A stretch of 33,357 bases of DNA from Candidatus Methanoperedens sp. (GTDB lineage Archaea; Halobacteriota; Methanosarcinia; Methanosarcinales; Methanoperedenaceae), in assembly GCA_030650845.1 (NCBI GenBank), contig JAUSDC010000084.1:1-33357 (forward strand), read 5' to 3'. The notes beneath the pieces are model-generated. The model was given only the letters and a program-made list of their open reading frames with translations, had not been told where the DNA came from and did no database searches. Made by a program: the position numbers and the translations under genes. Below are positions 3,363 through 5,968 of the stretch, piece after piece (within the stretch, counting starts at the first letter, position 1; each line of letters begins with the position of its first letter).

Positions 3363-3420
3363 TATAACATTCCGTTGTCAATAATTATTTATATTTCAAT
3401 TTATTAAAAGTTTAATCAGT

Positions 3421-3446
3421 TATTTATATATACTAAAATTTAAATA
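3421..3446 (+). promoter_or_regulatory. A+T-rich promoter region of the KaiC/GTPase/Roadblock operon
   Basis: The gap between UPF0146 and the operon contains TATTTATATATAC (3421-3433) and AAATTTAAATAG (about 3436-3447). The second lies about 25-35 nt before the ATG at 3474. Either could be the TATA box. A GGAAAG (3465-3470) just before the ATG could serve as a ribosome binding site. Confidence 0.45.
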
Positions 3447-3473: not shown

Positions 3474-4178
3474 ATGAGTGATTATACACTTGGAATTAAA
3501 GAGTTAGATAGCGTTATTGGGGGGATAAAAAAGGGCTCTAATATCATGCTTATCGGTCCGCCAATGAGCGGAAAAGAAACTATCCTGTATTCAATAATGT
3601 ATTACGGGGCAACAAAAAATGAAAATGCGGTAATAACGGTCTCAACTCGCGAATCTGCGACCCATATCCTTGAATGGTTCAAGGAACAAAAACTGGTCCT
3701 TCCTTTAGCCAGGGTGGGGATAGTTGATTGCGTCACAAAAACTCTTGGCGGTGCGTCAGTTGAGAATGAAAATATCAAAATAGCAAGCAGTCCTGTGGAT
3801 CTTACAGGAATTGGAGTAAAGATAAGCCAGTTCTTTGAAGAATATTTTATGAAGAAAAATATCAGGAAAACCCAGCTTCATATCAATTCATTATCAACGA
3901 TCCTGATGTATTCGAATATCCAGACCGTTTTCAGGTTCCTGCATGTTTTTACTGGACGTATCAAAGCTGCAGGTTCTCTGGGAATATATGTGCTTGAGAG
4001 CGGCATGCATGATGAGCAGGCAATTTCAACGTTGAAACAGCTTTTTGATGGCTTGATAGAGATAAAATCAGAAAATGATAAGAACTTTATTAGAGCTGTA
4101 GGGCTTTCCCCGAAACCTACACCATGGTTTGAATATGAGATCGATGGAGCAGACGTGAAGATAGTAGGGAGAAAATAA
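3474..4178 (+). CDS. KaiC/RecA-superfamily ATPase-like protein (HTR-like), single domain
   Basis: A 234-residue single KaiC-like domain. It starts with the family pattern TLGIKELDSVIGG, then a P-loop Gly28-Pro-Pro-Met-Ser-Gly33-Lys34-Glu35-Thr36. The residue after the Walker lysine is Glu rather than Ser/Thr. The C-terminal half has the typical FDGLIEIK strand and ends in a short beta region. It is the first gene of an operon with a KaiC-GTPase fusion (1 nt gap) and a Roadblock protein. The family is often linked to signalling in archaea, but no function is proven. ATPase activity is uncertain because of the modified P-loop. Confidence 0.8.
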   Translation: MSDYTLGIKELDSVIGGIKKGSNIMLIGPPMSGKETILYSIMYYGATKNENAVITVSTRESATHILEWFKEQKLVLPLARVGIVDCVTKTLGGASVENENIKIASSPVDLTGIGVKISQFFEEYFMKKNIRKTQLHINSLSTILMYSNIQTVFRFLHVFTGRIKAAGSLGIYVLESGMHDEQAISTLKQLFDGLIEIKSENDKNFIRAVGLSPKPTPWFEYEIDGADVKIVGRK

Positions 4179-4179
4179 C

Positions 4180-5349
4180 ATGATCGAAACTGGCATCCCC
4201 AAACTGGATGAATTCCTGGGAGGCGGCATACCAAAGGGTAAAAGTCTTGTTTATTATATCCAGCCCGGCGTTGAAGGTGAGATATTCGGATTGCAGACAA
4301 TTTATAACTCTCTAAAAAAAGGAGGGAGAGGCGTCTTTGTTGTCTCAAGCACCATACCTGAAATAATTAAGGGACAGTTCAGAGAATTTGGCTGGGATAT
4401 CGATCAGTTCAAAGACAAGTTCTTTTTTGTTGATGCTTATAATTCATTGATAGGAGCGCCGTCAAATGAAAAATTCGTGGTTTCAAACCCAGACAATATT
4501 GAAGCGTTCAGTAAAGTTATTATGAACGCTTTAAAGGAATTGCCCCCCAGCACTATAGTTTTTGGCTCACTGTCAACGATCATAGACCTTTGCGGAGAAA
4601 AAGAAACGATAAACGCTGTCAAGTCCTGGAATAAGACAGCAAAGGTGTACGATCATGTGATGGTCTATAATTTCACCGCATGGCCATATTCAGAAGAAAC
4701 ATTAAAAGCCATAAAAGATGAATTGTTCAATGCCGTCATATCTGTCGGGGGTATAGCAGAGCGGGTTATCTTCGGGCAATATTTCGGGATATTCAAGGCT
4801 GACTGGACAAATGAAAATAAAAAATCCATGCTATTCAGGGTACTTCGCCCGGGCGGGATACGGCTGTATATACCGAAGATACTTGTTACAGGACCATTTG
4901 ACTCTGGAAAATCCACCTTTGTACATGCGCTCTCCACAAGAGCGATATCTGTTGATAGGCTGGGGACTACAATAGCTCTTGACCACGGACATATTGATTA
5001 TAAAGGTTTCAGTGCTGATATCTTCGGAACACCTGGCCAGGAGAGGTTCGACCCGATAATAAAACTGCTAAGTGGCGAATCAATGGGTGTCTTTTTGATA
5101 GTGGATTCAACAAACCCGACTGATTTTATCCGCGCAAAACAGATGCTTGAGATAACTAAATCATACGGGCTACCGTATGTGATAATTGCCAATAAGCAGG
5201 ATTTACCCGGCGCTTTAGCCTCTGAGGAGATAAGGATCCAGTTCAACCTCCCCTCTGATGTCCCAATTGTCCCTGTGGTGGCAAAGGATAAAAAAGGTAT
5301 TTTTGAGGCCTTCGAAGTATTGATAGACAAGATCACAGGAGGGATTTAA
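4180..5349 (+). CDS. Fusion: inactive-looking KaiC-like domain plus Arf/MglA-like small GTPase
   Basis: A 389-residue two-domain protein. Residues 1 to about 225 are a KaiC-like fold (TGIPKLDEFLGGGIPKG), but the P-loop position reads QPGVEGEIFG, with no Walker lysine, so ATP binding is doubtful. Residues about 230-389 are a small GTPase: G1 Gly238-Pro-Phe-Asp-Ser-Gly-Lys244-Ser-Thr, a G2 threonine near 263-264, G3 Asp280-Ile-Phe-Gly283-Thr-Pro-Gly-Gln, G4 Asn-Lys-Gln-Asp 338-341. The Q-E-R after DxxG and the overall pattern fit the group containing MglA, conservon and COG2229 GTPases. The stop overlaps the next ATG by one base (TAATG), so it is translationally coupled to the Roadblock gene, a likely regulator of this GTPase. 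Confidence 0.86.
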   Translation: MIETGIPKLDEFLGGGIPKGKSLVYYIQPGVEGEIFGLQTIYNSLKKGGRGVFVVSSTIPEIIKGQFREFGWDIDQFKDKFFFVDAYNSLIGAPSNEKFVVSNPDNIEAFSKVIMNALKELPPSTIVFGSLSTIIDLCGEKETINAVKSWNKTAKVYDHVMVYNFTAWPYSEETLKAIKDELFNAVISVGGIAERVIFGQYFGIFKADWTNENKKSMLFRVLRPGGIRLYIPKILVTGPFDSGKSTFVHALSTRAISVDRLGTTIALDHGHIDYKGFSADIFGTPGQERFDPIIKLLSGESMGVFLIVDSTNPTDFIRAKQMLEITKSYGLPYVIIANKQDLPGALASEEIRIQFNLPSDVPIVPVVAKDKKGIFEAFEVLIDKITGGI

Positions 5350-5717
5350 TGACCGATACAATTGAACTTATTGACAAAGTACTATCCGACCTAAAAACAG
5401 CAGGAGGTGTGGAAGCTTGCGCAGCGGTAAGCCGCGACGGTCTTCTTATCAGATCCAGCCTTCATAAAGAACAGTTTGCTGAATCCTTCGCTGCAATGTC
5501 GGCCACAATGCTCGGTGCTGCAGAAACTGCATCCATTGAACTTGGAAAAGGTGTACCCAACAGGGTCATTGTGGAATCTTCACAGGGGCGGTTGATAGCT
5601 GTTGGAGCTGGGCGTAAAGCCCTGTTGGTCGTTATTGTGAACCAGGACGCAGGGCTTGGATTGGTACTCCTTGAACTTGATAAAGCTGCATTAAGCCTGA
5701 AAGAGTTGCTCGAATGA
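5349..5717 (+). CDS. Roadblock/LC7 domain protein (MglB-like)
   Basis: A 122-residue single-domain protein with the Roadblock/LC7 pattern: an N-terminal helix, Val-Glu-Ala-Cys-Ala-Ala-Val-Ser-Arg-Asp-Gly-Leu-Leu-Ile strand-turn-strand, a long Ala-rich helix (FAAMSATMLGAAETA), two strands (RVIVESSQGRLIAVGAG) and a final helix. In bacteria such proteins (MglB, conservon CvnB) dimerise and control small GTPases. Its start overlaps the stop of the GTPase fusion and its end overlaps the next gene by 4 nt. A GAP or adaptor role for the adjacent GTPase is inference from this linkage. Confidence 0.9.
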   Translation: MTDTIELIDKVLSDLKTAGGVEACAAVSRDGLLIRSSLHKEQFAESFAAMSATMLGAAETASIELGKGVPNRVIVESSQGRLIAVGAGRKALLVVIVNQDAGLGLVLLELDKAALSLKELLE

Positions 5718-5968
5718 ACAGACAGGAACATAGAAAAAGCGCTACTGCACTTGAACCTGCCCTCCAGGTAGGTAAATCCGGTACAGGTGCAGTCGTTGAT
5801 GAGTTAAAAATACAGTTGAAGAAATTGAAACTCGTTAAAGTAAAATTCCTTAAATCTGCTTATTTTGAAGGGGATAAGAATGAGCTGTCTGAAAAACTGG
5901 CTAACATGACTGGCTCAGAACTTATTGAGGTAAGGGGTAATACTGCGGTGTTTCGCCGAAAAGGGTAA
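5714..5968 (+). CDS. YhbY/CRM-domain RNA-binding protein
   Basis: An 84-residue protein matching the CRS1-YhbY (CRM) fold: an N-terminal helix with RKSATALEPALQVGKSG (the conserved GK-x-G loop), a middle helix, KLVKVKFLKSA and a C-terminal strand ELIEVRGNTAVFRR. Members bind RNA and are associated with ribosome assembly in bacteria. It is coupled to the Roadblock gene by ATGA overlap and precedes rps19e, so its natural partners may be the ribosomal genes downstream rather than the GTPase cassette. Confidence 0.88.
   Translation: MNRQEHRKSATALEPALQVGKSGTGAVVDELKIQLKKLKLVKVKFLKSAYFEGDKNELSEKLANMTGSELIEVRGNTAVFRRKG

Follow-up and report, generated by a model that had tools for sequence, protein, structure and literature searches.

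What function might be served by three tightly packed archaeal genes that bring together KaiC-like domains, a Ras-like GTPase and a Roadblock protein? The genes lie in a 33,357-nucleotide stretch of Candidatus Methanoperedens DNA (the window, from a source genome of 3.4 Mb). The ORF list and the sequence show all three to be intact, to lie on the + strand and to start with ATG. K1 (3474..4178, + strand; Pfam, AF2 and Foldseek) is a stand-alone KaiC-like (RecA-fold) protein of 234 aa, FUS (4180..5349, + strand; Pfam, NCBIfam and AF2) is a 389-aa protein that joins a pseudo-KaiC domain to a Ras/MglA-like GTPase, and RB (5349..5717, + strand) is a protein of 122 aa with a single Roadblock/LC7 domain (Pfam Robl_LC7, 6.9e-14). 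The spacing of +1 nt between K1 and FUS and of -1 nt between FUS and RB (a shared TAATG) agrees with the 1-nt gap and 1-nt overlap given in the original prediction, whose reading of the third gene as a single Roadblock/LC7 domain is likewise borne out by the Pfam match. A candidate TATA-box-like element, ttatttatatatac (3420..3433, + strand), was read by eye ~40 nt upstream of the K1 start. Downstream, a co-directional gene for a YhbY/CRS1 domain protein (5714..5968, + strand) overlaps RB by 4 nt and is probably not part of the module; together with YhbY, the RtcB, S19e and PDCD5-type genes of the window mark it as archaeal.

The explanation that we favor, with a probability of roughly 0.7, is that the trio works as a single signalling module with a Ras-like GTPase switch at its core, in which RB would set the state of FUS in the manner of MglB and K1 and FUS would form a KaiC-fold assembly.

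The GTPase and KaiC-like domains of the trio

The GTPase domain of FUS (4861..5346, + strand) was delimited with Pfam, NCBIfam and alignments. Residues 233-385 match the Arf/Ras/small_GTP families at 5.9e-11, and the NCBIfam small_GTP score of 53 bits lies above the cut-off. Alignment places the G1/P-loop GPFDSGKS at 4891..4914, the G3 motif GTPGQ at 5026..5040 and the G4 motif NKQD at 5191..5202 (all + strand), so that the fusion of a KaiC-like domain to a GTPase with intact G1, G3 and G4, as originally described, is confirmed; an invariant Thr-Thr pair at residues 263-264 (4966..4971, + strand) adds the G2 motif. Thr occupies the position of the intrinsic Arg of group 1 MglA, which rules out an Arg finger of that type in FUS. 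This Thr, combined with GTPGQ in G3, is a hallmark of MglA groups 2-5 (PMC4316618), and FUS carries the full motif set of these groups (G1 GxxxxGK[ST], G3 GTPGQ, G4 NKxD and Thr in G2); the coupled Roadblock partner gene that also characterizes them accompanies 102 of 122 distinct fusions. MglA proteins of these groups are single domains of about 160-180 aa, a description that does not fit the 389 aa of FUS with its N-terminal KaiC fold, and the trio is therefore classed as a variant of the MglA/MglB-type switch and not as MglA proper.

The GTPases of Thermus, Deinococcus and the Streptomyces/Euzebya conservons are 29-39% identical to the FUS GTPase. Each of the five bacterial relatives inspected in detail (Thermus, Deinococcus, conservons) adjoins a Roadblock gene, in line with the pairing of such GTPases with Roadblock proteins that the original prediction cited for MglA-MglB and the conservons. 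In a tree with outgroups, the root of which is not fixed, the fused archaeal GTPases make up one branch (100/95) apart from the stand-alone archaeal and bacterial GTPases; an earlier tree, three rows of which had badly cut domains, agreed on the single fused branch. Placement of all the fused GTPases in one clade is compatible with a single fusion event.

K1 matches DUF7504 (1.4e-24) and KaiC (2.6e-9) in Pfam, and its AF2 model (pLDDT 94.0, pTM 0.91) finds SSO2452, PH0284, KaiC and ArlH/FlaH among its Foldseek matches. In alignments, its P-loop GPPMSGKE (3555..3578, + strand) retains the Walker A lysine, as do most K1 homologues, and carries Glu in place of Ser/Thr. Glu or Asp stands at this position across the Methanosarcinales, which makes ATP use by K1 uncertain; the K1 proteins of Archaeoglobaceae and K1B of the second ANME-2 copy (GPPKTGKS) carry GKS/GKA.

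The KaiC-fold half of FUS (about residues 1-222; 4180..4845, + strand) was recognized by a Pfam KaiC match over residues 2-141 (6.9e-22) and by a Foldseek search of the FUS model (pLDDT 90.3, pTM 0.86), in which PH0284 was its closest PDB match (TM 0.86 over the target). Where PH0284 has PGTGKTIF, FUS has the degenerate Walker A sequence PGVEGEIF (4264..4287, + strand). GK[ST] occurs at this site in none of 122 distinct homologues, and the Walker A lysine has been lost from all of them, which identifies the KaiC half as a pseudo-ATPase and leaves K1 as the putative nucleotide-binding KaiC-like subunit of the trio. As judged from these motifs, the RecA-fold parts would thus be a pseudo-ATPase in FUS and, in K1, a protein that may bind ATP. 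As to the proposal that RecA-fold domains act as receiver or scaffold, a scaffold or adaptor is the more likely role of the KaiC half of FUS, whose ATP site is gone.

A circadian KaiC is ruled out by the single KaiC domains of K1 and FUS and by the Walker A loss in FUS; the circadian ATPase has tandem CI-CII domains with Walker A motifs, and both proteins score far below the KaiC cut-offs. A separate Methanoperedens locus (L061:3345-4997) encodes a 550-aa protein with a pseudo-KaiC domain and an unidentified C-terminal region, from which the GTPase is absent.

Distribution of the trio and its Roadblock partner

A search of archaeal genomes for the fused protein with a Roadblock neighbor, as suggested at the outset, found the trio at ~100 distinct loci, a recurrence that argues against a chance arrangement. 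The carriers include genomes of Methanoperedens, ANME-2a/b/c, ANME-3 (HMMV2, accession DQIO01, PMC9012536), GoM-Arc1, Archaeoglobaceae, Methanocella-like archaea and Alkanophaga; the labels Methanocella-like, Methanomicrobiales-like, ANME-1-like and Syntrophoarchaeum-like are inferred from relatives and placement. The fusion query matches 55 of 60 related genomes at E <= 0.001, a count that includes KaiC-only matches, and full-length fusions occur in nearly all genomes of the same genus, in families f2 and f3 and in one f4 genome. An even sample of the phylum yields matches at 1e-30 in 69 of 393 genomes. Among the Methanosarcinaceae, 6 of 112 genomes and 2 of 14 genera have the fusion, the named carrier being ANME-3 HMMV2. 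No fused protein was found in family f10 (ANME-1-type, an inferred taxon), and this absence, together with the presence of the trio in Archaeoglobaceae and Methanocella-like genomes, rules it out as a marker of anaerobic methanotrophy.

The order K1-FUS-RB prevails at most loci. ANME-2 genomes have a second, reordered copy (RB-FUS-K1B), and in Alkanophaga RB is followed by a weakly K1-like gene of 203-208 aa and then by FUS. RB adjoins FUS downstream at 90 loci and upstream at 12, with a FUS-RB spacing of -47 to +3 nt in 86 of the 90, so that the situation that would have told against the pairing, a GTPase never found beside a Roadblock gene, does not hold. At one locus, L186, in a single genome, the two are naturally fused in a KaiC-GTPase-Roadblock chain of 546 aa (Robl_LC7, 7.8e-13).

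The state of the GTPase motifs follows the presence of RB. They are intact in 100 of 102 fusions with an adjacent RB versus 10 of 20 without; after clustering at 80% identity the counts are 39/39 versus 8/18 (p 1e-6), and at 60% identity 14/14 versus 6/12 (p 0.004). In these counts L186, whose G3 reads GTPGH, was placed in the class without RB even though its RB is fused. The fusions that lack RB come from Methanomicrobiales-like genomes, half of them with altered GTPase motifs, and from three Methanoperedens duplicates, all of them altered; the motifs are unaltered in L174, L177 and L179. Because the lineages without RB are few and these three keep their motifs, the independent evidence for the association is modest. 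The Methanomicrobiales-like genomes keep K1-FUS with no RB next to it, so that RB at the locus is not obligatory; their Roadblocks are encoded elsewhere. Three Archaeoglobaceae genomes encode no Robl_LC7 protein other than RB, an observation that, with the conserved adjacency, the triple fusion and the motif association, supports a link between RB and the GTPase.

RB has the Roadblock/LC7 domain of MglB, and its nearest solved relatives are archaeal and Asgard roadblocks (including 7YH1), CvnB5 and MglB; against the NCBIfam MglB equivalog NF052242 it scores 24.3 bits, under the 200-bit cut-off. Its Asp-Gly pair (in SRDGLL; 5436..5441, + strand) appears as DG or EG in 105 of 107 RB sequences, and a DG pair has been noted in the MglB partners of MglA groups 2-5 (PMC4316618). 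The unfused relatives were rejected as a true Roadblock-linked family, since none of 20 stand-alone group-4-like GTPases has a Roadblock gene within the ~5.5-kb stretches examined.

Mechanism and alternative explanations

If the trio is a switch of this kind, the GTPase of FUS, which is of the MglA group 2-5 type and looks active, would be tethered to a KaiC-fold domain that has lost the means of binding ATP through a P-loop. K1, with its P-loop lysine, would physically pair with FUS and so contribute the nucleotide-bound part to an assembly of mixed RecA-fold subunits, and the KaiC-like subunits would act as scaffold and as ATP-state input. RB, probably as a dimer, would contact the FUS GTPase and set its GTP/GDP state as a GAP, and possibly as a GEF too, like MglB on MglA; MglB serves MglA in both capacities (PMC11016934). 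We infer that signals would enter the module via sensor proteins that differ by lineage, such as the PAS proteins for the second ANME-2a/b copy, and this direction of signalling is putative, as is the GAP/GEF activity of RB. A bolder version, to which we give only about one chance in five, has an ATP-sensing K1 and the pseudo-KaiC of FUS joined in a mixed RecA-fold ring or dimer, with its ATP state gating the tethered MglA-like GTPases, with Roadblock as the resetting element, in an ATP-to-GTP relay that arose once in Halobacteriota, was duplicated in ANME-2 and, within Methanosarcinaceae, is confined to ANME-3-type methanotrophic genera.

A good deal less probable than the switch itself is the proposal that RB is an adaptor or dimerization platform of the Ragulator type, which brings the KaiC-GTPase assembly to a membrane or to a sensor protein and leaves GTP turnover unchanged. 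Roadblock dimers are platforms in Ragulator and TRAPP (general knowledge; PMC10933270), and the MglB partners of groups 2-5 have no conserved catalytic residue beyond the DG pair (Wuichet and Sogaard-Andersen, PMC4316618), but a pure scaffold would require no association between intact GTPase motifs and RB such as we observe. Less probable still, and in our opinion unlikely, is an archaeal polarity or motility switch that governs where type IV pili or the archaellum are placed, as MglA/MglB does in Myxococcus. The FUS GTPase and RB do resemble MglA/MglB, ArlH/FlaH is one of several KaiC-like proteins to which K1 aligns, and arCOG02603 roadblock genes and KaiC genes are reported near archaeal T4P loci (PMC4858521). 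Against these resemblances, no pilus or archaellum gene was recognized among the neighbors of the module at the loci examined, these neighbors vary by lineage, and K1 scores 25.9 bits against the ArlH equivalog, for which the cut-off is 215, with no archaellum genes among its annotated neighbors. The genes that do occur there are for translation, iron uptake, PAS sensors or scattered housekeeping functions and provide no positive evidence for polarity, and the PAS-sensor and histidine-kinase contexts favor signal transduction. The original prediction of an archaeal polarity or signalling switch accordingly stands in its signalling half, on the strength of the MglA group 2-5 motifs and the conserved Roadblock neighbor, and finds no support in its polarity half, with no motility or pilus genes among the neighbors in the loci examined.

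The adjacency of RB and YhbY, which is kept in Methanoperedens and ANME-2, might be taken to mean that the trio is read there together with YhbY (and then S19e and PDCD5) and controls ribosome assembly, but at none of the loci examined in GoM-Arc1, Archaeoglobaceae, Methanocella-like and ANME-3 genomes does YhbY lie next to the trio. The link is thus positional, and we regard a role in translation as very improbable. The loss of the ATP site from the FUS KaiC half is what a degrading remnant, with unrelated nucleotide-binding proteins brought together by chance, might display; the strong conservation across families, the two gene orders, the natural triple fusion and the intact GTPase motifs make such a remnant hardly credible.

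Known systems and neighboring genes

Based on the sequence comparisons, the trio looks like a variant of the MglA/MglB-type switch that is widespread in archaea. It shares with MglA/MglB groups 2-5 the GTPGQ G3, the Thr in G2 and a Roadblock gene coupled downstream, and the GTPases of Thermus/Deinococcus plasmid GTPase-Roadblock pairs are 34-39% identical to that of FUS; unlike MglA/MglB, the FUS GTPase is fused to a pseudo-KaiC and partnered by a second KaiC-like protein, K1. The published MglA survey covers single-domain GTPases and found no conserved neighbors for the archaeal group 4 (PMC4316618, Wuichet and Sogaard-Andersen 2014). The actinobacterial conservons (CvnA-B-C-D) also have a Ras-like GTPase (CvnD, ~31% identical) and a Roadblock in one operon, but the histidine kinase and DUF742 protein of a conservon are absent from the trio operon, which rules out that identification, and KaiC-fold subunits are present instead. 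Asgard GTPase-Roadblock fusions (PMC10933270) similarly join an archaeal small GTPase to a Roadblock domain; their GTPases are Rag/Rab-like and, in contrast to FUS, come without a KaiC domain, and operon linkage is reported to be uncommon (PMC10933270). ArlH/FlaH, PH0284 and SSO2452 agree with K1 and the N-terminal half of FUS in fold and domain size, but the end of the K1 P-loop is altered, the FUS half has no P-loop, and archaellum genes are not nearby. Archaeal KaiC-like proteins have reportedly been proposed as signalling hubs (by Makarova in mBio in 2017). FUS is like such hubs in that inactivated KaiC-like domains are joined to signalling modules, and inactivated iKaiC domains are mentioned in PMC5847659. 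The KaiC-GTPase-Roadblock arrangement was not found in the literature searched, which is in keeping with the initial statement that no characterized equivalent was known; the search did not take in the Makarova 2017 paper, where an earlier listing is possible.

If our explanation is right, methanotrophs, alkane oxidizers and Archaeoglobus-type and Methanocella-type archaea, both cultured and uncultured, would share an unstudied GTPase switch that unites two nucleotide-based regulators, the KaiC-like proteins and the Ras-like GTPases. Archaeal small GTPases would gain a specific, testable Roadblock partner, and there would be a concrete prediction for the role of inactivated KaiC domains in archaeal signalling.

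The genes that flank the trio differ by lineage, and in the loci examined none emerged as an input or output gene shared across lineages. Translation genes lie in the Methanoperedens window, multi-PAS proteins are encoded directly upstream of RB in the three ANME-2a/b type B loci scanned (L051, L058 and L059), and TatC, V4R and siroheme-type genes flank the trio in Archaeoglobaceae. In the Methanomicrobiales-like loci L192 and L199, where the Roadblock gene is not adjacent, a DtxR/FeoA-type regulator and FeoB lie upstream of K1-FUS and a TP_methylase and DUF357 pair lies downstream. The reordered ANME-2c module (L055:1727-2676) has two conserved proteins of ~150 and ~165 aa directly upstream of RB, with equivalents in L053, L056, L073 and L074 and no Pfam match. 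On contig C218 of the source genome (L065:142-5232), another Roadblock gene, whose product shares 54% identity with RB, adjoins the gene for a tandem KaiC protein, and is accompanied on the same strand by genes for two small possible membrane proteins and then a PAS/GAF/HAMP histidine kinase.

Several further loci depart from the common pattern. Extra K1-FUS copies without a Roadblock gene in Methanoperedens (L049, L050 and L054) have GTSGQ or GTPDQ as G3 and a 13-residue repeat-like insertion (KSDWIKE.../KSDWAKE...) in the linker. In two genomes of the ANME-1-like family f10, a stand-alone MglA-like GTPase is flanked by a Roadblock gene on either side, and a third Roadblock gene is nearby (L212:476-1717 and L213:1066-2350). 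Finally, a contig labelled Nanoarchaeota (L184:5998-12468) carries FUS, possibly through transfer or mis-binning; three genes related to Roadblock come after it, and among them lie a gene of the metallo-beta-lactamase fold and one for a HAMP protein.
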